From NCBI RefSeq assembly GCF_029991245.1, contig NZ_JAIVFO010000028.1, positions 1 through 36,731 on the forward strand: DNA of 36,731 nucleotides. The letters are read 5' to 3'. Positions 17,936-35,258 of the stretch are shown here, in pieces. Each line of letters begins with the position of its first letter. The stretch's first letter is position 1. A program made the translations under genes and the position numbers. Under the pieces are notes generated by a model. It was not told the origin of the DNA and did no database searches. It saw only the letters and a list, made by a program, of their open reading frames with translations. Source of the stretch: Xanthobacter autotrophicus. GTDB taxonomy: Bacteria; Pseudomonadota; Alphaproteobacteria; Rhizobiales; Xanthobacteraceae.

Positions 17936-18808
17936 ATGAATATTTCCGTCGCCAATATCGAGACGCTGAAGCTCGCCGACGCCGAAGCCGTCCTGAAGGA
18001 CGTGGCGGCGGAGCTGGTCGCCGGGAAGGCCGTGCCCTATCTGGGGCCCGGCCTCCTGGAGCTGTCCTCCCCCGCCATCCCGGTGACGCCGGAGGGCCTT
18101 GCGGCCTTCTTCGGCACCAAGGTGGCGCTACCCAAGCGCGCCAAGGGCAACGCCTGGGCCGCCGCCCAGCACATCGAGAGCATGAAGCACCGCTCCACCG
18201 TGTCGGCGCTCATGGCCGATGCGTTCGCGCCGCCGGTGCCGCCGCTGCCGTTCCATGCCTTCCTCGCCGGCCTGAACCTGCCGCTGATCGTGGACACCTG
18301 GTATGACGGCGCCATGCGGTCCGCGCTGGACGGCCGGGAGGGCTGGGGCGAGGCCCAGGGCATCACCCGCGCCGGCATCGGCGAGGACCGCTGGTATCGC
18401 TTCTATGACCCTGCCGGCAACGAGACCGACCGCGCCACGGCCGAGACCTGGCAGACCGTGCTCTACAAGCCCCACGGCAGTGTCGCGCCGGCCAAGAACT
18501 GGCTGATTTCCGACGCCGACTATGTGGAAGTCCTCACCGAGATCGACATCCAGACGCCGATCCCGGACGTGGTGAAGAACCGCCGCACCGAGCGCAGCTT
18601 CCTGTTCCTCGGCTGTCGCTTCCACGACCAGCTCCTGCGCACTTATGCGCGCCAGGTGACAAAGCGGTCGCGTCTGCCCCACTTCGCCATCGTGGACGAA
18701 GCGGTGCTGACCAAGAACGAACTGCGCTTCATGCTGGTCCACGCCATCACGCCCATCGCCATGCCACTGCCCAAGGCGCTGGACATCATCATGTCGGTTG
18801 CCGCCTGA
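17936..18808 (+). CDS. SIR2-like protein with altered catalytic motif
   Basis: A 290-residue protein with the layout of SIR2-like (STALD) NAD-binding domains: a Gly-rich [12 protein letters not shown] near residues 31-42, the strand-loop [15 protein letters not shown] around 117-131, KPHGSV with His180, SDADYVEV, and [15 protein letters not shown] near 220-234. In the family the third segment usually reads TTNYD. Here Asn is replaced by Trp122, so NAD hydrolysis or deacetylation is doubtful while nucleotide binding is possible. It starts six bases after nifT and ends just before a terminator, so it is the last gene of the iscN-nifUST operon. It is not part of a recognisable defence system. 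Confidence 0.75.
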
Positions 18809-18832
18809 TCGTCCTCGCGTTCGAGGTCCTCG

Positions 18833-18870
18833 GAGAGCATGTCCCACCCGGACATGCTCTCTTTGTTTTT
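18833..18870 (+). terminator. rho-independent terminator of the iscN-nifUST-SIR2 operon
   Basis: A perfect 12-base-pair stem (18833-18844 with 18850-18861), loop CACCC, followed by TTTGTTTTT. It starts 24 bases after the stop codon. Confidence 0.93.
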
Positions 18871-18899
18871 GACGCCTTGCCCCGGGTTTCGGGCGTGCA

Positions 18900-18913
18900 T
18901 TGATCAAGATCAA
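18900..18913 (+). promoter_or_regulatory. FixK/FNR-type box upstream of nifB
   Basis: TTGATCAAGATCAA is a perfect TTGAT-N4-ATCAA anaerobox. It is about 150 bases before the nifB sigma-54 promoter. It suggests an additional low-oxygen input through FixK or an FNR-like protein; no matching sigma-70 promoter was identified. Confidence 0.8.
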
Positions 18914-18942
18914 TAATGCGGCCGAAACCCAACGTATGACGA

Positions 18943-18958
18943 TGTAACTTTTCCAACA
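18943..18958 (+). promoter_or_regulatory. NifA upstream activator site 1 of nifB
   Basis: TGTAACTTTTCCAACA is an exact TGT-N10-ACA, about 110 bases before the -24 element of the nifB promoter. Confidence 0.8.
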
Positions 18959-18979
18959 TGTCGCTCCCGACGTGGCGCA

Positions 18980-18995
18980 TGTTGACAAGCCGACA
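18980..18995 (+). promoter_or_regulatory. NifA upstream activator site 2 of nifB
   Basis: TGTTGACAAGCCGACA is a second exact TGT-N10-ACA, 37 bases after the first. The pair lies roughly on different faces of the helix (37 bases is about three and a half turns). Confidence 0.8.
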
Positions 18996-19051
18996 GCTGG
19001 CGAAATTCTCTAAGTTTTTGAAAATCATTACGTATTTATCCGTAGCGCTGC

Positions 19052-19067
19052 TGGCACGCCAGTTGCT
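19052..19067 (+). promoter_or_regulatory. sigma-54 promoter of the nifB operon
   Basis: TGGCACGCCAGTTGCT is a perfect -24/-12 promoter (GG at 19053-19054, GC at 19065-19066), about 55 bases before the nifB start. Confidence 0.93.
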
Positions 19068-19121
19068 CATTCCTACCCAAGGATTTTTATTGGGATCCTG
19101 CTGGAAGCGAGGAGCAGATTC

Positions 19122-20684
19122 ATGCACGCGTCGACACAGCACGAGACGAGCGAAGCCGCCGTGGCCGACAAGCTGGCCGAGGCCATGCAGGCCAAGGCGG
19201 AACACCAGGGTTGCGGCACGTCCGGCGGCTCGGGCAAGGCCAGCTGCGGTTCGTCCGCCGGCCAGGGCGACCTGCCCACCGAGATCTGGGAGAAGGTGAA
19301 GAACCATCCCTGCTATTCTGAAGAAGCCCACCACCACTATGCGCGTATGCATGTTGCCGTCGCCCCGGCGTGCAACATCCAGTGCAACTACTGCAACCGC
19401 AAGTATGATTGCGCGAACGAATCCCGCCCCGGCGTGGTTTCCGAGAAGCTGACCCCCCAGCAGGCGGCCAAGAAGGTGCTTGCGGTCGCCTCCACCATCC
19501 CGCAGATGACCGTGCTGGGCATCGCCGGCCCCGGCGACCCGCTCGCCAATCCGGAGAAGACCTTCCAGACCTTCGAGCTGATCAACCGGACTGCCCCCGA
19601 CATCAAGCTCTGCCTGTCCACCAACGGCCTGGCCCTGCCCGACCACGTGGACACCATCGCCGGCTTCAACGTGGACCACGTGACGATCACCATCAACATG
19701 GTGGATCCGGAAGTGGGCGCGAAGATCTATCCGTGGGTGTTCTGGAAGCACAAGCGCTACACCGGCTATGAGGCCGCCAAGCTCCTCACCGACCGGCAGA
19801 TGCTCGGCCTGGAGATGCTCACCGAGCGTGGCATCCTCTGCAAGGTCAACTCGGTGATGATCCCCGGCATCAACGACAAGCACCTTGTCGAAGTGAACCG
19901 GGCGGTGAAGTCCCGCGGCGCGTTCCTGCACAACATCATGCCGCTCATCTCGGCGCCCGAGCACGGCACCGTGTTCGGCCTCAACGGCCAGCGCGGCCCG
20001 ACGGCCCAGGAGCTGAAGGCGCTCCAGGATTCGTGCGAAGGCGAGATGAACATGATGCGGCATTGCCGCCAGTGCCGCGCCGACGCCGTGGGCCTCCTCG
20101 GCGAGGACCGCTCCGCGGAGTTCACCACCGACAAGATCATGGCCATGGAGGTCAATTACGACCTCGATAGCCGCAAGGCCTACCAGGCCCTGGTCGAGGA
20201 AGAGCGCGTGGCGAAGGTCGCCGCGAAGCAGGAAGAGATGGAAGCCCTCGCCGGCGAGCAGAGCGACATCAAGCTCCTCGTCGCGGTGGCCACCAAGGGC
20301 TCGGGCCTCATCAACGAGCACTTCGGCCACGCCAAGGAGTTCCAGGTGTGGGAGCTCTCCACCGGCGGCGCCAAGTTCGTCGGCCATCGCCGCGTCGACC
20401 TGTATTGCCAGGGCGGCTACGGCGAGGAGGACAGCCTCGAGACCATCATCCGCGCCATCAACGACTGCCATGCGGTGTTCGTGGCGAAGATCGGCGGCTG
20501 CCCGAAGGCCGACCTCGTGAAGGCCGGCATCGAGCCGGTGGACGGGTTCGCCCATGAGTTCATCGAGAAGTCGGCCATTACCTGGTTCAAGGAATACCTG
20601 AACAAGGTGAAGACCGGCGAGATGGAGCACGTGGTGCGCGGTGACGCCGAGATCCGCCAGGGCGCGCTCATCAACGCGGCCTGA
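19122..20684 (+). CDS. nifB: FeMo-cofactor biosynthesis radical-SAM protein NifB
   Basis: A 520-residue protein that makes NifB-co, the Fe-S-carbide precursor of FeMo-co. The radical-SAM motif is Cys84-x3-Cys88-x2-Cys91 in [38 protein letters not shown] and [14 protein letters not shown] are further NifB landmarks; cysteines in the last two regions help bind the K-cluster units. From about residue 380 a NifX-like domain begins ([22 protein letters not shown]), as in most proteobacterial NifB. GAGGAG precedes the ATG. It leads a long operon with fdxN and accessory genes. Confidence 0.97.
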
Positions 20685-20700
20685 TCGTCTCCACAAGGAC

Positions 20701-20737
20701 TGGATCCGCTCAGGTTGAAACCGCCTGGGCGGATCCA
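20701..20737 (+). other. hairpin between nifB and fdxN
   Basis: A 14-base-pair inverted repeat (20701-20714 with 20724-20737, one G-T pair) starting 17 bases after nifB. There is no T-tract. It may stabilise nifB mRNA or attenuate the downstream genes. Confidence 0.65.
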
Positions 20738-20805
20738 TCTTCAAGTTCAAGCCAACTGACCGTCCTGCCGATCAGATCGCGCGCTCGGCATCAAAGGAGC
20801 ATCCC

Positions 20806-21030
20806 ATGACGTTGAAAATCGTGGCGTCGCAGTGCACGAGCTGCTCGGCCTGCGAGCCGGAATGTCCCAACGTGGCCATTTTCGAGAAGAACGGGACGTT
20901 CGTGATCGACCCGAAGAAGTGCACCGAGTGCATCGGCCACTTCGACGTGCCCCAGTGCGCCGCGGTCTGCCCGGTGGACGATACCTGCGTCATCGACAAC
21001 GCGTATCCGCGCTATCAGCCCACCGCGTAA
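20806..21030 (+). CDS. fdxN: NifB-associated 2[4Fe-4S] ferredoxin FdxN
   Basis: A 74-residue bacterial-type ferredoxin with [13 protein letters not shown] near residues 10-22 and [19 protein letters not shown] near 40-58. The second cluster has the longer Cys spacing typical of FdxN/FrxA-type ferredoxins. In alphaproteobacteria fdxN follows nifB and donates electrons to nitrogenase or to NifB. AAAGGAG precedes the ATG. The next gene begins 11 bases after the stop. Confidence 0.94.
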
Positions 21031-21041
21031 GGAGAGACGCG

Positions 21042-21356
21042 ATGAACTTCACGATGACCCGTTCGGCCCAGCGCTTCATCCGCATGATGATCATGGCCGA
21101 CGGCGGTCCCAGCGCCGGTTTCCGGATGCATGTGACCCCCGGTGGATGCTCCGGGCTCAACGCCGAAATCGCGGTGCTGCCCGAGCCTGCGCCGGGTGAT
21201 GCGGTGGTGGAGCAGGACGGCCTCAAGCTGTTCCTGCCGGCGGAAAGCCGCCTGCTGCTCGATGGCGTCACCATCGACTTCACCGATACGGCCGCCAAGA
21301 CGGGCCTGGTGTTCCAGGATCCCAAGGCGACCACCTGCAGCTCGCACACGCACTGA
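21042..21356 (+). CDS. IscA/HesB-like protein lacking one ligand cysteine
   Basis: A 104-residue A-type carrier homologue. Cys36 is in VTPGGCSGLNAEI and Cys99 is in ATTCSSHTH at the C-terminus. The usual third cysteine, at position 101 of the Cys-x-Cys tail, is Ser; a His-x-His lies just after it and could replace it in metal binding. Compare the complete set in the paralogue at 15525. It is expressed with nifB and fdxN, so cluster delivery to NifB is one possibility. AAGGAGAG overlaps the fdxN stop. Confidence 0.85.
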   Translation: MNFTMTRSAQRFIRMMIMADGGPSAGFRMHVTPGGCSGLNAEIAVLPEPAPGDAVVEQDGLKLFLPAESRLLLDGVTIDFTDTAAKTGLVFQDPKATTCSSHTH

Positions 21357-21367
21357 ACCGTGACGTG

Positions 21368-21390
21368 CCGGGGCGGTTCACCCGCCCCGG
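21368..21390 (+). other. hairpin after the IscA-like gene
   Basis: A perfect nine-base-pair stem, CCGGGGCGG/CCGCCCCGG (21368-21376 with 21382-21390), loop TTCAC, with no T-run. It is another intercistronic hairpin in the long nifB operon. Confidence 0.6.
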
Positions 21391-21451
21391 ACATGCGTCG
21401 CGCGCAGCCGGCTCCCGGTCGGAGGGCTGCGGAGGGAACAAGGGGACGGGA

Positions 21452-21991
21452 ATGGAAGGCTCGCAGGTTTCGGGCGATCCGGATTTCCTCACCCCCGAGG
21501 CGCTCCTCGCGAGCGCCGTGATGGGGGGAGGGCTGCCGGAAGACGCACAGTATCATCTGTGGGAAGCCGGCCTCTCCTACCAGCAGGATGAAGTCGCGGA
21601 AGCCCATCTGCGGCAGGCCGAGGCGCTGGCGCCGGGTCATGCGGCAGTGCTGATTGGTCTCTACCGCTTCTATTTCTACAAGGGCCGGCTCCGGGAGTGC
21701 CTGGTGGTGGCTCGGGAGTGCCTGGCCAAGGCGCAGCGGGAGACCAATCTGCCAGCGGACTGGCGAGACGTGTGCGCGCAGGATGCGGAATTCTCGCGCT
21801 ACGACCGGCTGATGCCGCGCTTCTTCCTGTTTACGCTCAAGGGCTACGCCTACCTCAACATGCGCCTCGGCGATCTGGAAGAGGGGCGGGCCGCGGGGAT
21901 GAAGCTGCTCGAGCTCGATCCCACCGACAAGGTCGGTGCAAGGCTGTTGCTCGACGTGCTGAACAGGGCAGGGCAGGACGATGATGACTGA
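21452..21991 (+). CDS. TPR-like helical repeat protein of the nif island
   Basis: A 179-residue all-helical protein with TPR-like units: AQYHLWEAGLSYQQDEVAEAHLRQAEALAPGH (about 31-62), AVLIGLYRFYFYKGRLRECLVVAREC and FFLFTLKGYAYLNMRLGDLEEGRAAGMKLLELDP near the end. It has no signal peptide. A paralogue at 28357 shares the layout and the FxLxTLKAxAxxxLR and LDPT elements. Such proteins are usually interaction adaptors; the partner is unknown. The ATG at 21452 has AAGGGGA upstream. Its stop lies inside the start of the LRV gene, implying translational coupling. Confidence 0.82.
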   Translation: MEGSQVSGDPDFLTPEALLASAVMGGGLPEDAQYHLWEAGLSYQQDEVAEAHLRQAEALAPGHAAVLIGLYRFYFYKGRLRECLVVARECLAKAQRETNLPADWRDVCAQDAEFSRYDRLMPRFFLFTLKGYAYLNMRLGDLEEGRAAGMKLLELDPTDKVGARLLLDVLNRAGQDDDD

Positions 21992-22760
21992 AGACGACAT
22001 CGACGAAGCCAAGACCTGGCTCGGGGAAGACGTCGATTGCTCCTCGTGCGCCCACCAGGACCTCCTGGCGCAGGGAAAATGCAGCCTGCGACGGGCCTGC
22101 GTGAACGACCGCTATGCCCGGCGCATCGACCGCTTCTTCAACTGGAACCCGGCGCTCGCCAACTCCTATGTGCGGCACGACCATTTCGAGGTGCGCGCCA
22201 TCGCCGCCAAGCACGCGGACGTGTTTGTCCTGCCGGCGCTCCTCAACGATCCGGAAGAGACGGTGCGCTGGAACGCAGCACGTCGCCTGCCGAAGACCAA
22301 GATCCTGCCCCTGCGCAAGGATCCCCATCGTGAGGTGCGTATCCGCATCGTCTCGCTGCTGGAGGATGCCGACCTCTCCCCCATGATGGCGGACGAGGAT
22401 TATTACGTGCGGCTCGTCGTGGCGCGCCGCATCGCGCCGCCGCTGCTCTCGCGCATGGTGGACGATCCGGAAGCCGAGGTCCGCCGTGTGGTGGCCCAGC
22501 GCCTGCCGGGGGAATGGCTGCTGTGCATGGTCAACGACAGGAGCCCCCAGGTGCGCCTGGAGGTGGCCCAGCGCCTCGCCCCCGATCTTCTCTCCGCGCT
22601 CGTGGCCGATCCGGACTGGCGGGTGCGCTACGAGGTGGCGAGCCGCATCGCGCCCACCCAGGTGTCGCAGCTGGTCGACGACGACGACGACTTCGTGCGC
22701 GAGGTCGCCCGGTCCCGCGCGAAGGCGGGCGGAGAGCTTTTGAGGGAGATGCCGCTATGA
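21981..22760 (+). CDS. leucine-rich-repeat-variant (LRV) protein with 4Fe-4S domain
   Basis: A 259-residue protein. The N-terminal Cys motif is Cys20-x2-Cys23-x10-Cys34-x5-Cys40 (CSSCAHQDLLAQGKC). It matches the Fe-S domain of Azotobacter LrvA-type proteins. From about residue 60 there are eight or so 24-residue repeats of the form LLxDPxxxVRxxVAxRL, an alpha/3-10-helix solenoid. In nif clusters such proteins are common but unassigned. The solenoid probably binds a protein and the cluster may sense redox or oxygen. It overlaps both neighbours (TPR gene and nifZ). A paralogue is at 35523. Confidence 0.88.
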   Translation: MMTEDDIDEAKTWLGEDVDCSSCAHQDLLAQGKCSLRRACVNDRYARRIDRFFNWNPALANSYVRHDHFEVRAIAAKHADVFVLPALLNDPEETVRWNAARRLPKTKILPLRKDPHREVRIRIVSLLEDADLSPMMADEDYYVRLVVARRIAPPLLSRMVDDPEAEVRRVVAQRLPGEWLLCMVNDRSPQVRLEVAQRLAPDLLSALVADPDWRVRYEVASRIAPTQVSQLVDDDDDFVREVARSRAKAGGELLREMPL

Positions 22761-23074
22761 GCAACATTGTCCGTGACAGTGATGTGGTCGAAGTCTCTGA
22801 GCCGCCCTACTTCAATTTCGGCGAGAAGGTGAAGGCCAAGCGCGTCATTCGCAATGACGGAACCTATGCCGGGAAGGAAATCGGCGAGATTCTCGCAAAG
22901 AAGGGCGAGATCGGCTACGTGGTTTCCATCGGGACCTTCCTGCAGCAATTTTATATCTACGGCGTCGAATTTACCGAAAGCGGCAATCGCGTGGGTATGA
23001 AGCGCAAGGAACTCGAAAGCGCGATCCCGCGCGACGAAATGGACATTCCCCTGCCCGGAGCACCCAAAGCATGA
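22757..23074 (+). CDS. nifZ: NifZ, first copy
   Basis: A 105-residue NifZ-domain protein: YFNFGEKVKAKRVIRNDGTY, then GEIGYVVSIGTFLQQFYIYGVEF. NifZ acts in maturation of the P-cluster of the MoFe protein. The ATGA at 22757 overlaps the stop of the LRV gene, and its own stop overlaps the start of the second NifZ gene, so the three are translationally coupled. Confidence 0.93.
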   Translation: MSNIVRDSDVVEVSEPPYFNFGEKVKAKRVIRNDGTYAGKEIGEILAKKGEIGYVVSIGTFLQQFYIYGVEFTESGNRVGMKRKELESAIPRDEMDIPLPGAPKA

Positions 23075-23316
23075 TCCTCGAGCCGCGCAACCCCAAGTAT
23101 CAGTGGGGCCAGAAGGTCAAGACCCTGATCGACCTCTACAACGACGGTTCCTACCCGGAGGTGCCGGAAGAGGCGCTGCTGGTGGGCCTCGGCACCACCG
23201 GCGAGATCGTGCAGGTGGGGACGCATACGGACACCAATACGCCCATCTACCTGATCGAGTTCACCGAACGCCTCGTGGTGGGGTGCCTCGAGGAAGAAAT
23301 CTCCCCGGTCGAGTGA
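23071..23316 (+). CDS. nifZ: NifZ-domain protein, second copy
   Basis: An 81-residue protein with a second NifZ domain: KYQWGQKVKTLIDLYNDGSYP, GTTGEIVQVGTH and IYLIEFTERLVVGC. The pattern YxWGxKVKxxxDLxNDGSYP then GEIVxVG parallels the copy just upstream. ATGA overlap joins the two genes. Two adjacent short NifZ proteins may act as one two-domain unit, or have split roles. Confidence 0.9.
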   Translation: MILEPRNPKYQWGQKVKTLIDLYNDGSYPEVPEEALLVGLGTTGEIVQVGTHTDTNTPIYLIEFTERLVVGCLEEEISPVE

Positions 23317-23362
23317 TCCTCCACAGAGCCGGGACAGCCTGGATTGGGAAAGAGACGAGACG

Positions 23363-23692
23363 ATGAGGCTGCCCGCTCATCCGAACGATCTCGACAAGAA
23401 GCGCATCGAGCGCGCCATCAAGGCGCGCAAGCGCTATCGCTATGTCACGCCCCGGGTGCTGGCCACCCAGGGGGGCTATCGCATCGAGAGCGCGTGCTGT
23501 TCGCGCAACATCGATCCAGAGGGCGGCGTGGTGGACATCGCCCTGCTGCTGTTCGACGCGGAAGGGTGCGCCTGGCAGCTCTTCCGCAAAAACCACGGTA
23601 CCCGTCTGTGGGAACTCGACAGCACCCACGACCGGTTGAAGGAGGTTCTCGATCTCCTCAACGACGATAGCGACCGCAAATTTTGGCAATGA
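23363..23692 (+). CDS. conserved-looking small basic protein, unknown function
   Basis: A 109-residue basic protein. The N-terminus is helical and rich in Lys/Arg (LDKKRIERAIKARKRYRY). The middle looks like beta strands (VLATQGGYRIESACCSRNI, VDIALLLFDAEGCAWQLFRK) and the end is acidic and helical. The Cys-Cys pair and WQLFRKNHGTRLWEL could be of note. It weakly recalls DUF3024-type proteins, which I cannot confirm. It lies 46 bases after the second nifZ in the nifB operon. Confidence 0.78.
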   Translation: MRLPAHPNDLDKKRIERAIKARKRYRYVTPRVLATQGGYRIESACCSRNIDPEGGVVDIALLLFDAEGCAWQLFRKNHGTRLWELDSTHDRLKEVLDLLNDDSDRKFWQ

Positions 23693-23715: not shown

Positions 23716-23779
23716 TGGGGACTTCGGCCCGCGACAGAAGACGCGGATGTGTCTCATCTTCGGCAAGGGAGAGTTAGTT

Positions 23780-24043
23780 ATGGCCCTCAGCGACAGCGAC
23801 CTCTCCGAGATCGAGAAGGTCCTCACGGCCGAGGACGCGTCCGGGCCTGTCTTTGCCGAGCTGCGCCGGCGATTTCCCGCGCTGTCGTGGACCCAATGCG
23901 ACGCTTCCGATGTCACGGAGGCGCCATTTCGCACTTATTCGACATACGACATCCATCTGCTCGACACCGCCGATCACTGCGCGCACATCACGCTCGATCC
24001 CGCGAGTGCCACCGGTGTCATCCTTGCCCGACGGAGCGCGTGA
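23780..24043 (+). CDS. small nif-cluster protein of unknown function (possibly DUF6129)
   Basis: An 87-residue protein: a helical N-terminus (LSDSDLSEIEKVLTAED), then FAELRRRFPALSWTQCDASDV, followed by strands with YDIHLLDTADHCAHITLDPASATGVILA. The pattern RRxFPxLxxTxCDASDM followed by FDLYLVD...HCWxITxDPxxATGLVLA is one I recall from nif clusters (DUF6129), a tentative link. The ATG at 23780 has AAGGGAG upstream. The stop overlaps the next start (TGATG). Confidence 0.8.
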   Translation: MALSDSDLSEIEKVLTAEDASGPVFAELRRRFPALSWTQCDASDVTEAPFRTYSTYDIHLLDTADHCAHITLDPASATGVILARRSA

Positions 24044-28884: not shown

Positions 28885-28900
28885 TGGCATTGCACTTGCT
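28885..28900 (+). promoter_or_regulatory. sigma-54 promoter, downstream of a tandem pair
   Basis: TGGCATTGCACTTGCT is a near-perfect -24/-12 promoter (GG at 28886-28887, GC at 28898-28899), about 40 bases before the MIP18-type gene. It is offset by 18 bases from the first promoter. No TGT-N10-ACA site is seen within 200 bases upstream. Confidence 0.8.
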
Positions 28901-28939
28901 ACTGGAACATATGACGAGGGGGCAGGAGGCAATCGGCAA

Positions 28940-29335
28940 ATGACTCAGCCAAGTGATCACGGCATTGCCGCTCCGACCACGATGATCCTCCATGGTGAGG
29001 TGCGGAGCATTGATGAGTTTGCGGAAGATGAAGCGGCGTTGATGGAAGCCATCATCGCCGGTTTGCGCACGGTGACCGACCCCGAAATTCCGGTCAACAT
29101 CTACGATCTTGGCCTGATCTATCGCATTGAGGTCAAGGACGAGGGCCTGGTTGAGATCGACATGACTCTCACTGCGCCGGGTTGCCCGGTCGCTGGGCAG
29201 ATGCTCGGCTGGGTGCAGGAGGCGGTGGTCGTGGTTCCGGGGGTTTCGGACGTAAAGATGAAGCTTGTGTTCGATCCGCCATGGGACAAGTCGCGCATGA
29301 GCGACGAGGTCCAACTGGAACTCGGGCTGATCTGA
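28940..29335 (+). CDS. MIP18/SufT-type Fe-S assembly protein
   Basis: A 131-residue protein of the DUF59/MIP18 family: IIAGLRTVTDPEIPVNIYDLGLIYRIEV, then IDMTLTAPGCPVAGQMLGWVQEAV with the family Cys, and MKLVFDPPWDKSRMSDEVQLELGL. Related proteins (SufT, PaaD) help mature [4Fe-4S] proteins. The N-terminal 30 residues are extra. It is probably a nif-dedicated Fe-S factor, given the tandem sigma-54 promoters just upstream. Downstream genes are on the other strand. Confidence 0.9.
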   Translation: MTQPSDHGIAAPTTMILHGEVRSIDEFAEDEAALMEAIIAGLRTVTDPEIPVNIYDLGLIYRIEVKDEGLVEIDMTLTAPGCPVAGQMLGWVQEAVVVVPGVSDVKMKLVFDPPWDKSRMSDEVQLELGLI

Positions 29336-29416: not shown

Positions 29417-29701
29417 TCAGCCGAGGAATTGTGCGGCGAAGCGGGCGCGCTTCTCGTCGGTGTCGAGCCCCTTGGTGAGCGGCCATTTGTTCTCGGAGAA
29501 CAAGGCCTTGACGCCGCGCGTCACCTCGGTGCCGCGGACGTACCAGCGCTCCACCCCGTCGGGGGAGATGACGGCGGGGCCGTCGGCGCGGTGCACGCAG
29601 GCATCCTCCAGCCAGAGCCTGGTTTCCGAATACAGGAAGATGCCTGCCTTGCGGGACATGTCGTCCCGGTTTTCTTCGGTCACCACGAACATGTCGGCCA
29701 T
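29417..29701 (-). CDS. small protein of unknown function
   Basis: A 94-residue soluble protein. FLYSETRLWLEDACVHRADGPAVISPDGVERWYVRGTEV looks like a beta-rich part in which a residue tract recalls proteins with an RxDGPAVxxxDGxxxWYxxGxxx pattern. The C-terminus is helical. The single Cys is not in a cluster motif. It follows the GST gene on the minus strand and is probably in the same operon. Function unknown. Confidence 0.75.
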   Translation of the reverse strand: MADMFVVTEENRDDMSRKAGIFLYSETRLWLEDACVHRADGPAVISPDGVERWYVRGTEVTRGVKALFSENKWPLTKGLDTDEKRARFAAQFLG

Positions 29702-29730
29702 GGGTACTCTCCTTGTGGGCTTGAACGTTG

Positions 29731-29764
29731 GGCGAGTCGTGTCAGTTGGCGAATCGTGTCAGTT
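29731..29764 (-). repeat. 17-base tandem duplication over the GST stop codon
   Basis: GGCGAGTCGTGTCAGTT (29731-29747) and GGCGAATCGTGTCAGTT (29748-29764) are adjacent and differ at one base. The second copy includes the GST stop codon (29759-29761), the first copy lies just outside. A recent local duplication. Confidence 0.85.
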
Positions 29765-30412
29765 GGGAAGGCTTTGCGTCACGCCGAGCAGGGCGAGATT
29801 GTAGCCTTCCTCACGCAGCACCCGCTGCACCACGGGCCGATCCAGCATGCGCTGGTAGTGGGCGGCGAGGTTGGGCGGCAAATCCATGCCGGTCTTGTCC
29901 GCCCAGAATTCCACATAGAACAGGATGGGATCGGCGGCGGAAAATTCACCGGCCACATAGTCGCGGCCCGTGAGCGCCTGATCGAGGATGGAGAAGCCCT
30001 GGCTTACGATGTCACGGCCCAGGGTTTCCACCTTGGGCCGGTCGGTGGGGCTGGCAGCGAAGGTCGGGGTGGAGAAGATGCGCGCGAAGCCTTGGCCATG
30101 CACCGTGCCCACCACATAAACCATGGCCTCGAGGGCCCGCGCCGCCGCATCCGCGTCGGTGGGCCACAGCCGGCCGCGGCTGTGCGCGAGCCAGTAGGCG
30201 ATGGAAACCACCTCGGTCAGCGCGCTGCCGTCCGGCCGCACCAGCGCCGGGATGGTGGACTTGGGGTTCACGGCGACATAATCCGGCTTGAAATGGTCGC
30301 CGGCCGGCAGGTTCACGATGTGGGCCTCGAAGATTTCTTCCAGCTCTTCCAGGATGATGTGGATGCCGGTGGAACAGGAGCCGGGGGTCATGTAGAACTT
30401 CATCGCGGCCAT
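29759..30412 (-). CDS. glutathione S-transferase family protein
   Basis: A 217-residue GST: the thioredoxin-like N-terminus MKFYMTPGSCSTGIHIILEEL has the SCST segment of beta-class-like enzymes. NPKSTIPALV holds the cis-Pro, and LTEVVSIAYWLA matches the GSH-gamma-glutamyl site. A helical C-terminal domain with GRDYVAGEFSAADPILFY follows. Members of this family occur in nif clusters of other diazotrophs, with unproven roles. The start could be 30412 or 30403 (MKFY). It is divergent from a Rieske gene. Confidence 0.9.
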   Translation of the reverse strand: MAAMKFYMTPGSCSTGIHIILEELEEIFEAHIVNLPAGDHFKPDYVAVNPKSTIPALVRPDGSALTEVVSIAYWLAHSRGRLWPTDADAAARALEAMVYVVGTVHGQGFARIFSTPTFAASPTDRPKVETLGRDIVSQGFSILDQALTGRDYVAGEFSAADPILFYVEFWADKTGMDLPPNLAAHYQRMLDRPVVQRVLREEGYNLALLGVTQSLPN

Positions 30413-30539
30413 CAGGCGTCATCCCTCGCGCGCATCCTGGTGCGCCGTCCCGGCGGGGCGGGCGGCAGTCGGCATGCTTCATGCAAATATCGGGGCAGTT
30501 CGGAGCCCGGCCGCCGCAGCGGCTGGAAGTCCGACAGTC

Positions 30540-30555
30540 TGTTTCATTTGCGACA
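30540..30555 (+). promoter_or_regulatory. NifA upstream activator site in the GST / Rieske divergent region
   Basis: TGTTTCATTTGCGACA is an exact TGT-N10-ACA. It is about 50 bases before the Rieske start. The best -24/-12 candidate nearby (30463-30479, plus strand, GGCAG and ATGCT) lies upstream of it, so which gene it controls is unclear. Confidence 0.65.
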
Positions 30556-30603
30556 GGGGCCGGCATGTTCAGGCTGGCGCGTTTCAGGCAGGACGGGAGC
30601 GGG

Positions 30604-31059
30604 ATGGGGATGTCTGCCGACGAAATCGATATTTATGCCATCTGCGAGATTGAACAGATTTCCCCTGGCGCGGCCAAGGCGTTCGACCTGTCCCGGGTCA
30701 TGGATGATGGCGAGGCGCGCCCCTTCCGCATCGTGGTGATCCGCACCGCGGTCCGGGAATTTGCGGGCTATGTGAATGCCTGCCCCCACCAGGGCACTTG
30801 GCTGAATATCGGCGGCGGCGAATTCTTCAACGCGGATCGCACGCGCCTGCGCTGCGGCCGCCATGGCTCCCTGTTCGACATCGAGAGCGGCGCCTGCGTG
30901 GAAGGCGCCTGCGAGGGCAAGCATCTGGAGCCCATCGCCCTTGCGGTTGTCGGCCGCGACGTGTGCCTGTGCGGCGTCCGGCTGGTGGAAGAGGAACAGC
31001 GCCCCTTCCCGTATGACGATTTCGACGACACCATGGAGATCATGATCTCGCCCGACTGA
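30604..31059 (+). CDS. second Rieske [2Fe-2S] protein
   Basis: A 151-residue soluble Rieske protein. The ligands are Cys60-Pro-His62 in NACPHQGTWLNIGGGEFF and Cys84-Gly-Arg-His87 in RCGRHGSLFDIESG. ACVEGACEGKHLEPIAL parallels the paralogue at 13668 (VCIDGPCKGRSL), which also has an acidic tail. Start candidates are 30565, 30604 and 30610; 30604 is chosen because GGGAG lies just before it. The stop overlaps a possible start (TGATG at 31057) of the next gene. It leads an operon with two small proteins and a truncated haemoglobin. Confidence 0.85.
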   Translation: MGMSADEIDIYAICEIEQISPGAAKAFDLSRVMDDGEARPFRIVVIRTAVREFAGYVNACPHQGTWLNIGGGEFFNADRTRLRCGRHGSLFDIESGACVEGACEGKHLEPIALAVVGRDVCLCGVRLVEEEQRPFPYDDFDDTMEIMISPD

Positions 31060-31103
31060 TGGCCGGGATCGCGTGGCAAGAAGATGTCCGGGGTGGAGAC
31101 GGG

Positions 31104-31427
31104 ATGACGGGTGACTTGGAGACTGCGGCCGTGGAGGCGGGCGAATGCCGCTTCTACACGACCTATACGGGCGTGAAATTGCCCTTCCGGCTGGTGGAAG
31201 CCATTCCGGAGGCGCAACTGACCCATCGCAACACCTTCATCCGCGCTTATTTCGCGGCGGACGGGCTGCTGACGGGCTTCGACAAGATGGTCTATGGCGA
31301 GGTCGAGCTGGCGCACCGCTATCAGTATCACGGCAATGGCGCGCTGCGCCGGGCCGAGGTGACCATGGACGAAGAGACGGTGGTGCTCGCCTTCGACGAG
31401 GCGGGCGCGCCGCTGGGGCCGGCCTGA
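31104..31427 (+). CDS. small protein of unknown function (possibly DUF6156)
   Basis: About 107 residues. CRFYTTYTGVKLPFRLVEAIPEAQLTHRNTFIRAYF leads to LTGFDKMVYGEVELAHRYQYHGNGALRRAEVTMD. The pattern C-R-[YF]-x-T-Y-x-GVKLP, then NTxxRAYF and YGEVELxHRYxYHxNGAL, is one I recall in nif regions (DUF6156). The link is from memory. An in-frame ATG at 31059 overlaps the Rieske stop; 31104 is preferred because GGAGACGGG stands before it. Confidence 0.8.
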   Translation: MTGDLETAAVEAGECRFYTTYTGVKLPFRLVEAIPEAQLTHRNTFIRAYFAADGLLTGFDKMVYGEVELAHRYQYHGNGALRRAEVTMDEETVVLAFDEAGAPLGPA

Positions 31428-31485
31428 GCGCGGCCATGGCGGGATCAGGATCGGCAATTTCCGGTACGACGGACGAGGGACGGGC

Positions 31486-31653
31486 ATGACGGTGGCGCAA
31501 CTCATCGAGGCGCTCGGCAAGCTGCCGCCGGACGCGGTGGTGCTGATGGAAAGCGGCGGCGGGCTCTCCCTCGTCTCGGCATTCGACTTCGTCGAGGCCC
31601 AGGGGGCGGGCGCGCCGGCCGAAGTGATTCTTCTACCCAACATGGACGAATAG
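31486..31653 (+). CDS. very small 55-residue protein
   Basis: A short reading frame, ATG at 31486 to TAG at 31651-31653, with GAGGGA before the start. It encodes a helical N-terminus (MTVAQLIEALGKLPPDAVVLME) and a strand-rich end (LSLVSAFDFVEAQ, PAEVILLPNMDE). The length, the ribosome-binding site and its place between genes of the same strand support it. The pattern resembles small proteins of the form LIxxLxxLPPDAxVxMxxxxGxxxVxx, which I cannot assign. Confidence 0.7.
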   Translation: MTVAQLIEALGKLPPDAVVLMESGGGLSLVSAFDFVEAQGAGAPAEVILLPNMDE

Positions 31654-31715
31654 GCGGCATCACCGCCCATATGATCGACGTGTTTTGTTGCGAACCCTTT
31701 GCGTGAGGTTGACCC

Positions 31716-32150
31716 ATGTCCGACACGGTCGAGGCGGTACCCATGTTCGAGCGCCTGGGTGGCGCTGTGGTCATCGACCGGCTGGTCGAGGCCTTCTACC
31801 GCCGCATGGACACGCTGGCGGAGGCCGAGGGTATCCGCGCCATGCATGCGGACGATCTCTCCCAGACCAAGCATGTGCTCAAGCGCTACCTGACCGAATG
31901 GACCGGCGGACCCAAGCTCTATTCGGTGGAGAAGGGCCATCCCCGCCTGCGCCAGCGCCACATGGGCTTTACCATCGGCAACAACGAGCGGGATGCGTGG
32001 CTCCTGTGCATGCGCGGGGCGCTGGACGAGACCGTGGCGGATGCGGCGGCGCGAGACGAGGTCTACGGCGCCATGGCGAAGCTTGCCGACTGGATGCGCA
32101 ACACCGCCGGCAATCCCCACGACACCGCGGGCCACGCGGCGCGGCCTTAA
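31716..32150 (+). CDS. group II truncated haemoglobin
   Basis: A 144-residue protein with the group II truncated globin pattern: MFERLGGAVVIDRLVEAFYRRMDTLAE, LKRYLTEWTGGPKLYSVEKGHPRLRQRHMGFTIGNNERDAWLLCM. The proximal His lies in the RQRHMGF segment; the WTGGPxLY and HPRLRxRH blocks are typical. It may bind O2 or NO and protect or sense for nitrogenase; that role is inference. The first 10 residues are extra. It closes the Rieske operon; two minus-strand genes converge on it. Confidence 0.93.
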   Translation: MSDTVEAVPMFERLGGAVVIDRLVEAFYRRMDTLAEAEGIRAMHADDLSQTKHVLKRYLTEWTGGPKLYSVEKGHPRLRQRHMGFTIGNNERDAWLLCMRGALDETVADAAARDEVYGAMAKLADWMRNTAGNPHDTAGHAARP

Positions 32151-32229
32151 GTTTCGGGTGCATTTCTGAGCTGAGGGTGCCGCGCCGAGCCGAGGCTCAG
32201 ACAAGGCAGCGCCGGCTGCCGGGTCCGCC

Positions 32230-32469
32230 CTAGAGCGGTACGCCGAAGAAATCTTCGTCCGAGCCGCCCCAGGCCTGGTGCAGGGCGAGGGCGCTGCGCC
32301 ACTTCGCCAACTCGTCTTCGGAGGCGCTGCGATGGGTGATCTTGCCCTCCGGCTTCTCTGCCAGCAGGTAGGACTTGGCGTTGCGCAGGAAGCGGTTGAG
32401 GTCCTTGGTATCGTTCGGGCGAACGACACAGCGGGGGGCTTCATCGATGAGAATCGTCGTCGGGACCAT
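32230..32469 (-). CDS. small protein of unknown function
   Basis: A 79-residue protein. TTILIDEAPRCVVRPNDTKDLNRFLRNAKSYLLAEKPEGKITHR is followed by SEDELAKWRSALALHQAWGGSDEDFFGVPL. It looks like two helical segments and a conserved-looking aromatic C-terminus. I know no family. The ATG at 32469 has GGAGA just upstream; longer frames to 32766 are unlikely. It is the second gene of a NifA-type operon. Confidence 0.75.
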   Translation of the reverse strand: MVPTTILIDEAPRCVVRPNDTKDLNRFLRNAKSYLLAEKPEGKITHRSASEDELAKWRSALALHQAWGGSDEDFFGVPL

Positions 32470-32597
32470 CGCCGAGTCTCCTTTTCGCGTCGGTTGCGTG
32501 TCGTCGTGTCGTGTGCTGCGCGACCCGCGGGGCGCGCCATGTCTGGCGGCCGCGATGTCTGGCGGCAAGGGGCGGGCGCGGGCGCCCGCCCGCCTGC

Positions 32598-32843
32598 TCA
32601 GAATCCGTCCTTCTTCGAGCCCCAGGGATGGGAGCCCGGCACGAAGGACGCCTTGATACCGGCCTTCGCGATGGCTTCGATGGTCTTGTAATAGGTGCCT
32701 TCGTGCACCAATGCTCCGGTCTTGGTGTTCACCGCGACGTATTTGGCGACCATGTCGGTCTCGCACACATATCCGCCGCCGGGATCGGAGACGCTGCGGG
32801 CGTTGCCGTCCCAGTCGATGAAAAACCCTTCACTCTCTGACAT
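32598..32843 (-). CDS. small protein of unknown function under a NifA promoter
   Basis: An 81-residue protein. FFIDWDGNARSVSDPGGGYVCETDMVAKYVAVNTKTGALVHEGTYYKTIEAIAKAGIKASF looks beta-rich, then helical. A single Cys. No family is recognised. It is the first gene of its unit, 47 bases after the predicted start of transcription of a strong sigma-54 promoter with two NifA sites. Expression with nitrogenase is therefore likely. Confidence 0.78.
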   Translation of the reverse strand: MSESEGFFIDWDGNARSVSDPGGGYVCETDMVAKYVAVNTKTGALVHEGTYYKTIEAIAKAGIKASFVPGSHPWGSKKDGF

Positions 32844-32900
32844 GCCTTGCTCCAGCAGATAAGGCGGAGCGCGCCATCAAGGCCCCGCTCCTCCGGCGCG

Positions 32901-32916
32901 AGCAAGGTTCTTGCCA
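32901..32916 (-). promoter_or_regulatory. sigma-54 promoter of the two small minus-strand genes
   Basis: On the minus strand TGGCAAGAACCTTGCT is a near-perfect -24/-12 promoter, about 58 bases before the first gene. Confidence 0.88.
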
Positions 32917-32938
32917 GATGCGGAAACATGGAAGTGCG

Positions 32939-32954
32939 TGTCGGAGAGGCGACA
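32939..32954 (-). promoter_or_regulatory. NifA upstream activator site 1 (near) of the two small minus-strand genes
   Basis: TGTCGGAGAGGCGACA is an exact TGT-N10-ACA. It is centred about 57 bases above the predicted start. Confidence 0.82.
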
Positions 32955-32955
32955 G

Positions 32956-32971
32956 TGTCGTGCATCCAACA
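32956..32971 (-). promoter_or_regulatory. NifA upstream activator site 2 (far) of the two small minus-strand genes
   Basis: TGTCGTGCATCCAACA is a second exact TGT-N10-ACA, one base away from the first. The two could bind adjacent NifA dimers. Confidence 0.8.
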
Positions 32972-33099
32972 GCAAGGCAGCGCGCAGGTGTGCTTCGCGA
33001 CATTTGGAATTTTTAGGCAGAATCTGTCACCAATATTGAAAATTCTGCAGGATCATCTAAAGTCTGCAAGTTCTTTTTTGTTTTCGCTGGAGAGATGTT

Positions 33100-33585
33100 A
33101 TGGCCGAATTGACCCGACGCATGGCGTCGCTGAGCGACGTGCAGGGCATCTGGGGGCTGCTGCGCCAAGTGTCGTCCGACATCCCCTTCAAGGTTGAGGA
33201 CGAACTGCAGCAGGAGAGCCTTCTGTCCGAGCTGATGGCCTGCTGCACCTCGGGCCTGTCGCCGGTGCTGGTGGACAATGAAAAGGGCATCGTCGGCGCC
33301 CTTCTCGCCCGCCGCGATGATTTCGAATGGGGCTTCCGCAACAGCGAGGCCATCCACGTGGCCTATGCGGCCGTGGCCCCGGCGGTGCGCGAGGACAAGG
33401 TGTTTCCGGCCCTTCTCGGCGAACTGCAGGACAAGAAGGTGCCGCTGCTCGCCAGCGTGAAGAACGGGGAGCAACTGGGCTTTGCTGCGGCCCTCGGCGA
33501 ACTCGGCTTCACCCATGAAGTGAAGGCCGAGAGCGGCTGGGGCGATCTCTACCAGTGGACTCCGCCGGCTTCGGTCCACAATTGA
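33100..33585 (+). CDS. GNAT-like protein (tentative)
   Basis: A 161-residue protein with a GNAT-like layout: RRMASLSDVQGIWGLLRQVSSDIPF at the N-terminus, PVLVDNEKGIVGALLARRDDF as the central hairpin, AIHVAYAAVAPAVREDKVFPALLGEL as a strand and helix, then PLLASVKNGEQLGFAAALGELGFTHE, which fits the C-terminal part. A clear acetyl-CoA Q/R-x2-GxG/A motif is not visible, so enzyme activity is uncertain. It starts after GGAGA. A possible sigma-70-type promoter (TTGAAA at 33036, 16 bases, TAAAGT at 33058) lies upstream. The two NifA sites at 32939-32971 are on its upstream side but no -24/-12 was found for it. Confidence 0.72.
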   Translation: MAELTRRMASLSDVQGIWGLLRQVSSDIPFKVEDELQQESLLSELMACCTSGLSPVLVDNEKGIVGALLARRDDFEWGFRNSEAIHVAYAAVAPAVREDKVFPALLGELQDKKVPLLASVKNGEQLGFAAALGELGFTHEVKAESGWGDLYQWTPPASVHN

Positions 33586-33687
33586 CGGGATCGGACCGTC
33601 CGTGAACGCGTAAATCGGTCGGCTCGCCATGGTGGTTTGACCATGTGCGGGCCGAACACCGTGGGGTCTATAGTAAAACTCAAGGTT

Positions 33688-33720
33688 CACCCATCAGATT
33701 GAGGGACAATCTGATGGGTG
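33688..33720. other. perfect 14-base-pair inverted repeat
   Basis: CACCCATCAGATTG at 33688-33701 pairs with 33707-33720, loop AGGGA. It directly abuts the dispersed repeat copy B. With no T-run on either strand it is an unusual element rather than a standard terminator; it may still end transcripts of the GNAT-like gene. Confidence 0.7.
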
Positions 33721-33775
33721 CGTGCTCCAGAGCGTTTTCGACCGAACTGGCTACCGGTTCGCGTGAAGAAAACGC
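33721..33775 (+). repeat. dispersed palindromic repeat, copy B
   Basis: It shares the ACCGGTTCGCGTGAA core and flanks with the reverse complement of 9391-9440. It has internal symmetry: GCGTTTTC/GAAAACGC at the sides, CGTGC/GCACG at the ends. Confidence 0.65.
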
Positions 33776-33839
33776 GGCACGTAAGTCTTTCGGCAAGTCT
33801 CTCAAGGGATTGCCGTGAGCTAAGCCGCACGAAATCGCT

Positions 33840-34169
33840 CTAGATGCTGTCTTCGCTTTCGGGCCGGGCCTGGATTTCCGCGAAGGCGGTGTCCACCACG
33901 GCGCGGCATGCGACCAGGCGCTGATACTCTGCGGCACTGATGGTGACGGTGTCCCCGGGCGCATCGCTCTCAGCGGGCGGGCGGCCGGCGAGGGCGGCCT
34001 CGAACAAAGTGCGCTCCAGCTGGAAGATGCGCTCGCTCGCCCGCTCCAGATACGGCAGCGGATTGGCCCGGACATTTTGTTCATGCAAGGCGTCGAGGCT
34101 GAGCAGCTCCCGGAAGCGCTTTTCCTTGCGCCGCTTGCCCGCGCCGAAATCGTGTTCGATCACGCTCAT
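33840..34169 (-). CDS. unknown 109-residue helical protein
   Basis: A charged, mostly helical protein: FGAGKRRKEKRFRELLSLDALHEQN (basic), LPYLERASERIFQLERTLFEAALAG (helix), then VTISAAEYQRLVACRAVVDTAFAEI, which is a short strand and helix. The central part could form a coiled coil. One Cys. No family recognised. On the minus strand it lies 330 bases beyond the dienelactone-hydrolase-like gene, with a strong hairpin between. Confidence 0.7.
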   Translation of the reverse strand: MSVIEHDFGAGKRRKEKRFRELLSLDALHEQNVRANPLPYLERASERIFQLERTLFEAALAGRPPAESDAPGDTVTISAAEYQRLVACRAVVDTAFAEIQARPESEDSI

Positions 34170-34499
34170 GGTGGCGTCCTTGATGGACTCCCGCGTTGGC
34201 GGTATCCGATGAAACGTCCTTGAGCTTGGACCAAGTCGGCAAATATTTCCATCCCGAATCGATAGAAAATCCGGGGCCCGGCAAGTCGTCGCGGCGCGGC
34301 AAGTCTTCGCATGCCGCAGCCTTCACCTGTCGCCGGCTGGAGCGGCGGCAAGGCCGGAGTATGGAGTGCGGGTGCGGCGCATCCCGCTGGTGGGAAGAAC
34401 CACCGGCGCGGGATGCGCAAAGCACGTGCGATTCAATGCGTGAGCCTGAGCATGTCCCACCAACCGCTGTGGGTGGAACATGGTCTCGCCAGCGCCGCC
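34170..34499. other. intergenic region with strong hairpins
   Basis: No gene is supported in these 330 bases. An 11-base-pair stem GCGCATCCCGC/GCGGGATGCGC (34377-34387 with 34408-34418), extended by GGTGG/CCACC, is the strongest structure. A second stem (34451-34461 with 34472-34482, one mismatch) lies near the stop of the minus-strand gene. Neither has a T-run. No promoter was recognised for the 109-residue protein. Confidence 0.6.
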
Positions 34500-35258
34500 T
34501 CAGTCGGCGGGCGGGCCCATGTCGTCGTCGGCCTTCTTCTTGGGCTTCTTTTCCGTCTTGGCCTGGGCATAGGCGCCGGCATTCTTCAGCAGCACGGGAC
34601 CCTGGCCCACCACATATTGGGAGATCCAGAACAGGGTGCGCTCCTGGGCCTTTTCCGCCGCTTCCGCATTATAGGCGGGCCCGGCCGCATAGCCGAAGCC
34701 GCGGGATGCGTCGGGATAGGAGAAGGCGGAGACATCCGGACGACGGGCGCGGAACTGAATCCGGTCTTCCTCGGAAAACAGCGGATCCTGTTCGGCAAAA
34801 TGAATGAGGGTCGGGATGCGGCGCTTCTCCATCACCCCCTCCAGCAGGCCGTCGGCGTGATAGCCGATGGCGCAGGCGAGGCCCTTGACCTTGTTGGCCG
34901 CGAGATAGGCGAGGTAGCCGCCCCAGGCATAGCCCACGAGGGCGACCTTGCCGGCGTCCTTCACCGTGTCCACGGTGGCCTGGATGGCCTCGATGGGCCA
35001 TTCCGTGCCCAGTTCGGTGGTGAGGGAGCGGCCCTCGGCGTCGGCCGAGGCGTCAAGCTCGATGTTGGACTTCACCTTGTCGAACAGGGATGGCGCGACC
35101 GCGACATAGCCAGCGGCAGCAAAGCTGTCCGCAATCTTGCGGATGTCGGCATTCACCCCGAACACGTCCTGGAGGACCACCACGGCACCCTTCGGCGTGC
35201 CTTCGGGGTCAGCCCGATAGGCGGAGAATTTCACTTCATTTGCTGTGACTTCGATCAT
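34500..35258 (-). CDS. dienelactone-hydrolase-like protein lacking catalytic Cys and His
   Basis: A 252-residue alpha/beta-hydrolase of dienelactone-hydrolase type: GAVVVLQDVFGVNADIRKIADSFAAAGYVAVAPSLFD is typical. The nucleophile elbow, G-x-C-x-G-G in active enzymes, reads GYAWGG, so Ala111 replaces Cys. Asp158 is kept in HFAEQDPLFSEED. The His normally in the Y-P-x-A-x-H-G-F motif is Arg186 (YPDASRGFGY). Two of three triad residues are thus changed, so hydrolysis is unlikely. The tail is Lys/Asp-rich. The start at 35258 has GAGG upstream. No function is known for such a protein in nitrogen fixation. Confidence 0.85.
   Translation of the reverse strand: MIEVTANEVKFSAYRADPEGTPKGAVVVLQDVFGVNADIRKIADSFAAAGYVAVAPSLFDKVKSNIELDASADAEGRSLTTELGTEWPIEAIQATVDTVKDAGKVALVGYAWGGYLAYLAANKVKGLACAIGYHADGLLEGVMEKRRIPTLIHFAEQDPLFSEEDRIQFRARRPDVSAFSYPDASRGFGYAAGPAYNAEAAEKAQERTLFWISQYVVGQGPVLLKNAGAYAQAKTEKKPKKKADDDMGPPAD

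Follow-up and report, generated by a model that had tools for sequence, protein, structure and literature searches.

The window analysed here, a stretch of 36,731 nucleotides, is the nitrogen-fixation (nif) island of a Xanthobacter, and the nearest named loci by their DegT genes are those of X. autotrophicus and X. oligotrophicus (97% identity). It contains four genes whose products have kept a known fold and lost the residues for its chemistry: a SIR2-like protein, a DegT-like protein (DegT), a ferredoxin-like protein of the iron-sulfur cluster (ISC) type (Fdx) and a dienelactone-hydrolase-like protein (DLH). The four genes are under selection and linked to nif, and DegT and Fdx are paired. 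We suggest, as on balance the most credible account, that these are nif-dedicated pseudoenzymes which selection maintains as accessory factors in the maturation of nitrogenase, acting by protein binding. We infer the non-catalytic function, the binding partners and the role in maturation, as intact evolution beside nitrogenase genes despite the lost residues suggests that the proteins act by binding others. An earlier sequence-only reading had described the four degenerate folds (Asn lost in SIR2, Lys lost in DegT, all Cys lost in Fdx, Cys and His lost in the hydrolase). It had placed one of them in iscN-nifUST and two in the nifB operon. Profile searches and comparison with relatives found all four proteins where that reading had put them and with those residue states; the SIR2 gene comes after iscN-nifU-nifS-nifT, and DegT and Fdx do sit in the nifB run.

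Residues were counted in relatives taken from genomes (L057-L076), from 80 named loci (L077-L156) and from plasmids (L002-L006), with the window sequence included in every count. The named loci are the best 80 of the 450 DegT loci in the scan. For DLH, seven further loci were offered and the three non-duplicates were added. Identical cores and weak matches were removed, with identity cut-offs of 35% for SIR2 and Fdx, 42% for DLH and 45% for DegT; DLH paralogues below 42% identity are thus excluded from the 41 DLH sequences. AlphaFold models were made for SIR2 and Fdx, and the folds of DegT and DLH rest on the profile match.

The SIR2-like protein matches PF13289 with 83.7 bits (cut-off 24.5), and its AlphaFold model (pLDDT confidence score 85.5) matches ThsA and DSR2 in the PDB with template-modelling (TM) scores of about 0.6. 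Where ThsA (7uxt) has TTNYD the window protein has DTWYD, i.e., the catalytic Asn is replaced by Trp. Of the two catalytic residues only this one is lost, as the HG histidine remains. Trp occupies the Asn site in 77 of the 80 sequences and the other three have a gap, i.e., it is found in all 77 that are readable. The His is present in 73 of the 79 sequences with a letter there; R. etli, Methylococcus and three Methylocapsa/Beijerinckia loci are among those without it. The GAG motif is mostly GPG or GPA. The least confident parts of the model are the N-terminus and residues 196–205, which lie within a stretch of many invariant residues. From the model, the low-confidence part of the best conserved segment (16 residues) is a candidate partner-binding site. 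A plasmid search with SIR2 gave 75 records, from Rhizobium, Sinorhizobium, Mesorhizobium, Bradyrhizobium, Paraburkholderia, Methylococcus and Microvirga. A short SIR2-like open reading frame (ORF) of 110 aa was seen in Paraburkholderia sprentiae (L004:13160-13797). A defence function was considered and set aside, as the ThsA model in PADLOC is matched weakly (1.9e-6) and a search against 50,697 phage records gave no match.

The DegT fold is assigned by PF01041 with 294.8 bits (cut-off 19.8). The window protein has DFSQPF in place of the family motif SFxxxK, so that Phe takes the place of the Schiff-base Lys and Asp that of the Ser at K-5, five residues earlier. None of the 90 nif-linked DegT sequences (nif-DegTs) has the Lys; the site is S in 26, L in 24, G in 19, F in 17, V in three and A in one, and it is never His. 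Asp stands for the phosphate-site Ser in 90 of 90, with D-F-[SA]-Q-P in nearly all, and the Asp facing the pyridine of pyridoxal phosphate (PLP) is also kept in all 90. The strong DegT paralogues of the same genome have Lys (L157 and L160) or His (L159) at this position, and in this L159 is like the Lys-less sugar dehydratases of the DegT fold. This paralogue check covered the strong matches of the genome; its weak matches to DegT (seven) and DLH (three) fell outside it. A plasmid search with DegT gave 965 records, four of them at 52–66% identity and the next listed at 38%. The three of these four that were read all lie within nif clusters; the fourth, from P. aromaticivorans, was outside the reading. 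On the plasmid of Bradyrhizobium sp. BWA-3-5 (L003:11869-13213) the DegT is an unannotated, broken copy split over two frames.

Fdx scores 41 bits with the ISC ferredoxin model TIGR02007, below the cut-off of 132.1. Its AlphaFold model (pLDDT 84.9) is closest in fold to R. capsulatus FdC among PDB entries and also matches ISC ferredoxins, with TM scores of 0.73–0.77 for the four best. The four ligand positions are Q, G, S and K, and the whole protein contains no Cys. Among the 67 Fdx sequences, 41 have all four Cys, 21 are Cys-poor and five are broken Bradyrhizobium remnants. The second ligand Cys is lost in all 21 Cys-poor rows, and X. tagetidis, the core Xanthobacter and a second Methylocystis-type group have kept one ligand Cys or none; the loop alignment is unsure in Methylocapsa/Beijerinckia, where an extra Cys is shifted. 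All four Cys are found in the photosynthetic Bradyrhizobium BTAi1 (L100) and in three ferredoxins of the own genome (L173, L174 and L176). No ligand position is among the 18 invariant Fdx columns, 16 of which lie from residue 48 onwards. The second Methylocystis-type DegT-Fdx group (L115, L135, L148, L150) has the fourth ligand Cys only and is distinct from the four-Cys Methylocystis pairs; one metagenome-assembled genome carries both kinds (L148 Cys-poor, L094 four-Cys). In Paraburkholderia sprentiae (L004) an unannotated four-Cys Fdx follows DegT.

The history of this loss was followed in two trees. In the DegT tree (61 rows) it takes four changes, of which at least two are forced by starred branches. 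However, in the Fdx tree (61 rows, 83 columns), for which the cluster loop was left out, a single branch (support 78/89; recovered in 81% of 200 bootstrap trees) has all 21 Cys-poor rows on the same side, which would make one origin possible. A clade of only the 17 Fdx rows with at most one ligand Cys was rejected (p 0.023). The Bradyrhizobium remnants L130, L132, L144, L146 and L155 were dropped before both trees, L003 also from the DegT tree and L073 from the Fdx tree. As the two trees disagree, independent losses were dropped as a firm claim; we claim a stepwise loss of Cys and leave the number of origins aside.

In DLH the triad is Ala-Asp-Arg, with GYAWGG at the nucleophile, the Asp kept and SRGF for HGF. 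The nucleophile site in the 41 sequences is S in 13, G in 10, D in seven, A and C in five each and a gap in one. The His is present in 19, and ten of the 41 could form a C/S-D-H triad. The other DLH paralogues of the related genomes (35–40% identity) keep C-D-H in 12 of 12, and the strong paralogue of the own genome (L168) keeps Cys and His. The gene lies 9 kb beyond DegT-Fdx on the opposite strand. A plasmid search with DLH gave 45 records, the best listed at 41.6%, and no nif-type copy was seen among them.

The four losses are thus not of one kind. The SIR2 and DegT residues are missing in all nif-linked relatives that were read, including Methylococcus and, for SIR2, also R. etli, so these losses are old. 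On the other hand, four Cys remain in 41 of the 67 Fdx sequences and a possible triad in some DLHs, so here the loss is confined to some lineages. The earlier notion of four independent losses does not hold in that form, as two are old and family-wide and two are lineage-specific.

Purifying selection, which the sequence-only reading had proposed to look for, is seen in all four genes. The ratio of nonsynonymous to synonymous substitution rates (dN/dS, omega) was estimated with an IQ-TREE codon model with kappa fixed at 1, so the values are rough. For 11 Xanthobacter sequences it is 0.104 for SIR2, 0.066 for DegT, 0.077 for Fdx and 0.105 for DLH, compared with 0.039 for nifB, 0.039 for nifT, 0.065 for the glutathione S-transferase (GST; 8 sequences) and 0.093 for the DUF6129 gene. 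Pairwise dN/dS to five near relatives is 0.10–0.26 for SIR2, 0.04–0.14 for DegT, 0.03–0.17 for Fdx and 0.05–0.15 for DLH, i.e., never above 0.26. Three Cys-bearing Fdx groups have omega 0.041, 0.063 and 0.045, and the Cys-less form is hardly less constrained. Across all groups measured omega is 0.04–0.17. From these values the four genes are not in decay in Xanthobacter, and neutral evolution is rejected.

A patchy decay in relatives, the other outcome that had been considered, is found in part. Taking an intact Fdx as one frame with 85% coverage and 45% identity, 27 of the 80 named loci have none, and all 27 are Bradyrhizobium. DegT is open in 79 of the 80 and partial in one (L124), and it is interrupted in the one plasmid mentioned above.

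Co-occurrence was counted in 150 related genomes; these replaced a class-wide nifH sample (190 genomes, 7 over the cut-off) that was too thin. nifD (TIGR01282) is present in 41 of the 150. SIR2 is present in 40: in 38 of the 41 genomes with nifD (absent from G226, G292 and G336) and in two of the 109 without, G199 and G249, whose SIR2 loci (L067 and L073) contain nif genes. DegT is found in 21 genomes, 19 of the 41 with nifD plus G199 and G249, and Fdx in exactly the same 21. The nif-type DLH (at least 52% identity) occurs in 18 of 101 genomes searched, all of them with DegT, and the next matches are at most 41% identical. The co-occurrence with nif proposed earlier is therefore strong. In the 80 named DegT loci, where the gene content refers to the fetched stretch only and is often cut by contig ends, nifZ and the DUF6129 gene are present in all 80, SIR2 in 71, nifB in 67 and DLH in 29. 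Fdx lies on the strand of DegT in all 53 loci with an intact Fdx, with a gap of 26–94 nt in 50 of them. In Methylococcus the order is nifB ... DUF3024, class-V aminotransferase, nifT, hypothetical, DegT, Fdx, hypothetical, SIR2, BolA. By co-occurrence and linkage the four genes are nif accessory genes, and among them only DegT and Fdx behave as a pair.

Several observations weigh against the suggestion that the four are dedicated, non-catalytic binding factors. The conserved His of SIR2 and pyridine Asp of DegT leave room for ligand binding or an altered chemistry, and so do the ten DLHs with a possible triad. That the four genes differ in how widely they occur argues against a single obligate assembly. 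In addition, DegT is kept in the 27 Bradyrhizobium loci where no intact Fdx is found, and no nif-type DLH is seen there within the fetched stretch, so the four proteins are not an obligate unit. The earlier idea of one assembly is unproven: DegT and Fdx are found side by side in the same genomes, SIR2 is much wider, and the nif-type DLH was found only in genomes with DegT. That these are four separate accessory genes, sharing the cluster and no common system, is a real possibility, if short of probable, and it overlaps with the pseudoenzyme explanation. SIR2 is found in nearly all relatives with nifD, DegT and Fdx in about half and DLH only together with DegT, and the losses differ in age. However, DegT and Fdx share genomes and are adjacent, and the genes from DegT to BolA are consecutive in Methylococcus.

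It is unlikely, in our view, that the proteins are still enzymes with a changed chemistry, where DegT would bind PLP, pyridoxamine phosphate or another cofactor non-covalently, SIR2 would use its kept His and DLH its Ser where present. The kept residues named above (the pyridine Asp of all 90 DegTs, the His of 73 out of 79 SIR2s, S-D-H or C-D-H in ten of the 41 DLHs) agree with this, and so does the paralogue L159, since Lys-less dehydratases of the DegT fold have His at the Lys position. But the nif-DegTs have neither Lys nor His there, their phosphate-site Ser is always Asp, every readable SIR2 has Trp for Asn, and a Cys-less Fdx is unable to hold a 2Fe-2S cluster at the ligand sites. Ligand sensors or regulators, i.e., a dead SIR2 that binds NAD or ADP-ribose and a dead DegT that binds a sugar nucleotide or PLP, each reporting the metabolic state to nitrogenase or its assembly, would also explain kept folds with a lost catalytic residue. 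The nearest solved SIR2 folds, ThsA and DSR2, and the PADLOC score point in this direction, but the altered GAG motif and the sequences without the His do not, and we consider such sensors distinctly improbable. Finally, the genes could be passengers caught in the nif cluster on their way to loss. The Bradyrhizobium Fdx remnants, the broken DegT frame of L003, the partial one of L124 and the short SIR2 ORF of L004 agree with this. However, with pairwise dN/dS no higher than 0.26 in SIR2 and 0.17 in the other three genes, omega low in all groups, DegT open nearly everywhere and conserved replacement motifs, it hardly deserves credence.

In the favoured account of pseudoenzymes as binding factors, DegT and Fdx would make up one unit. 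DegT would be the scaffold of a fold-type-I PLP enzyme in which PLP is no longer held as a Schiff base. Fdx would be an adaptor derived from an ISC ferredoxin, with the conserved C-terminal half (EGRKGxSK..EENE.LDxIVGVGSKSRL) doing the work; if this half suffices, the 2Fe-2S cluster would be dispensable in the Xanthobacter protein. ISC ferredoxin docks on IscS, a fold-type-I PLP enzyme, and by analogy DegT-Fdx may mimic or assist the contact between NifS and ferredoxin in iron-sulfur or cofactor assembly. The pair could help to bring iron-sulfur clusters or cofactor to a nitrogenase that is assembled outside the protected nodule. SIR2 would be an older and wider nif binding factor, lying with nifT or nifB-nifZ-nifT, and DLH a peripheral, late addition. 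Going further, it can be speculated, tentatively and with some doubt, that alphaproteobacterial nif clusters contain a pseudoenzyme platform for nitrogenase maturation. It would consist of a Lys-less DegT dimer as scaffold, Fdx as adaptor (its ligands shed in Xanthobacter) and a dead SIR2, with docking near NifS, NifB or NifZ in place of chemistry, and would be needed mainly for free-living, oxygen-exposed fixation.

Other proteins of the cluster keep their residues. NifS has its Lys and Cys in 64 of 64 sequences, the glutaredoxin its Cys in 25 of 25 and the GST its Cys in 12 of 12. The Cys and His of the Rieske protein are kept in 60 of 60 (the last His in 59), FdxN is complete at the four tested Cys in 64 of 64, and the LRV protein in 65 of 65 (64 at one position). 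An exception is the second IscA-like protein of the nifB run, where the third Cys is found in two of 52 sequences (the window included, seven gaps), which makes it a fifth degenerate protein of the set.

Table 1. Features of the window discussed in the text.
Feature	Position	Strand	Remarks
NifA-type upstream activator site, TGT-N10-ACA	15392..15407	+	before iscN
Sigma-54 -24/-12 site, exact	15468..15483	+	before iscN-nifU-nifS-nifT-SIR2; TGGCAC-N5-TTGCW, 0 mismatches
nifT	17714..17929	+	just upstream of SIR2; 55–83% identity to annotated nifT of L002, L003, L004, L006
SIR2_2-like pseudoenzyme, 290 aa	17936..18808	+	Asn to Trp in TNYD motif, His kept; PF13289 1.7e-23
NifA-type upstream activator site	18943..18958	+	before nifB
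NifA-type upstream activator site, second	18980..18995	+	before nifB
Sigma-54 -24/-12 site, exact	19052..19067	+	before nifB...DegT-Fdx run; TGGCAC-N5-TTGCW, 0 mismatches
nifB	19122..20684	+	82% identity to annotated nifB of L002 and L003
Second IscA-like protein	21042..21356	+	nifB run; third Cys absent; PF01521 3.4e-11
DUF6129 protein	23780..24043	+	PF19624 3e-5; one-base overlap with DegT start; in 80/80 named DegT loci
DegT/DnrJ/EryC1/StrS-fold pseudo-aminotransferase, 401 aa	24043..25248	+	Lys to Phe, Ser(K-5) to Asp; PF01041 1.3e-87
ISC-type ferredoxin-like, 104 aa	25301..25615	+	no Cys; directly after DegT; TIGR02007 1.8e-10
DUF6156 protein	31104-31427		PF19653 1.8e-44; also in matching clusters of relatives
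Dienelactone-hydrolase-like, 271 aa	34500..35315	-	nucleophile Ala, His to Arg, Asp kept; PF01738 1.5e-33

An exact sigma-54 site precedes each of the two runs that hold SIR2 and DegT-Fdx (Table 1), and read-through from the nifB promoter may reach DegT and Fdx. Before DLH there is a two-mismatch sigma-54 site only. The window contains 11 TGT-N10-ACA sites where 2.95 are expected, a number reached in none of 100 shuffles. Counting all sigma-54 matches with up to two mismatches, 22 were seen where 16.65 are expected, which is no excess over chance. One-mismatch sigma-54 sites were also seen at 28885-28900, before a gene at 28940, and, together with two TGT-N10-ACA sites, at 32901-32916, before a minus-strand gene starting at 32843. 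The window begins at nifD (1-195), and the best of four matches to the nifH model in the own genome covers residues 1–32 only (G000:C45:11786-11881); an assembly break at nifH is the probable reason.

The transfer of nif into new hosts depends on knowing each accessory gene, and SIR2 accompanies 38 of 41 nifD genomes, while DegT and Fdx mark about half. The database labels (aminotransferase, ferredoxin, SIR2 family, hydrolase) would misdirect experiments to activities that are very likely lost. The Fdx sequences, which go from four Cys to none while selection stays steady, also offer a testable case of a redox protein turning non-redox.

The presence of these genes in nif clusters is already in print, and the following refers to excerpts of the papers cited. 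The SIR2 of R. capsulatus (Rcc03262) lies within nifB1-rcc03265-nifZT-rcc03262 and was not detected in a nifA double mutant (PMC6925177). SIR2 family proteins are also listed in the nif clusters of P. stutzeri (PST_1325), Z. mobilis (ZMO1821) and Rhodovulum (PMC11332353, PMC8594446, PMC9412634). For Bradyrhizobium ORS278, BRADO5403 (DLH), 5410 (Fdx) and 5411 (DegT) are tabled under nitrogen fixation in the section on nod-dependent and nod-independent strains. The operon of BRADO5414, 5416, 5418 and 5424 is conserved in nod-independent strains and Azorhizobium, is not found in B. japonicum USDA110, S. meliloti or M. loti, and is up-regulated in stem-nodule bacteroids of A. caulinodans (PMC3899966). 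The strain distribution in that excerpt agrees with the absence of an intact Fdx from 27 Bradyrhizobium loci and with the four-Cys Fdx of BTAi1. R. capsulatus FdC is required for growth with Fe-nitrogenase, its function being given as undetermined (PMC10936413), and the excerpt of an Azoarcus transposon-sequencing paper holds nothing on these genes (PMC9769520). In the open-licence literature we found no report of the lost catalytic and ligand residues and no account of the SIR2 function.

Compared with known systems, the SIR2s of R. capsulatus, P. stutzeri, Z. mobilis and Rhodovulum are likewise nif-cluster members of the SIR2 family, NifA-dependent in R. capsulatus, but the active-site loss is unremarked in those excerpts, and they resemble the SIR2 of the window only in name and context. 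The ORS278 trio brings the same three gene kinds together, while its catalytic state is undiscussed in the excerpt. ThsA and DSR2 (PF13289) are antiphage NADases; the window SIR2 shares their fold, the HG histidine and the Y-D of TNYD, but it has Trp for Asn, adjoins nif genes and is a single domain in 290 aa. Perosamine synthetase and related sugar aminotransferases (PF01041; closest solved by sequence 7b0d, 3dr4 and 3bn1) share the DegT profile, whereas the nif-DegTs are without the Schiff-base Lys, have Asp for the Ser at K-5 and stand in a nif context in the loci read. Dienelactone hydrolase (PF01738; 1zi8, 4zv9) resembles the window DLH in profile and triad Asp, but not in nucleophile and His, which are lost in the latter. 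The Azotobacter FeSII (Shethna) protein, which needs its cluster, is also a 2Fe-2S-ferredoxin fold tied to nitrogenase, but its fold matches Fdx less well (TM 0.50–0.57). The fold of Fdx is that of the ISC [2Fe-2S] ferredoxin (TIGR02007) and of R. capsulatus FdC; unlike the ISC ferredoxin, however, the Xanthobacter protein is without all four ligands and falls below the cut-off of that family.

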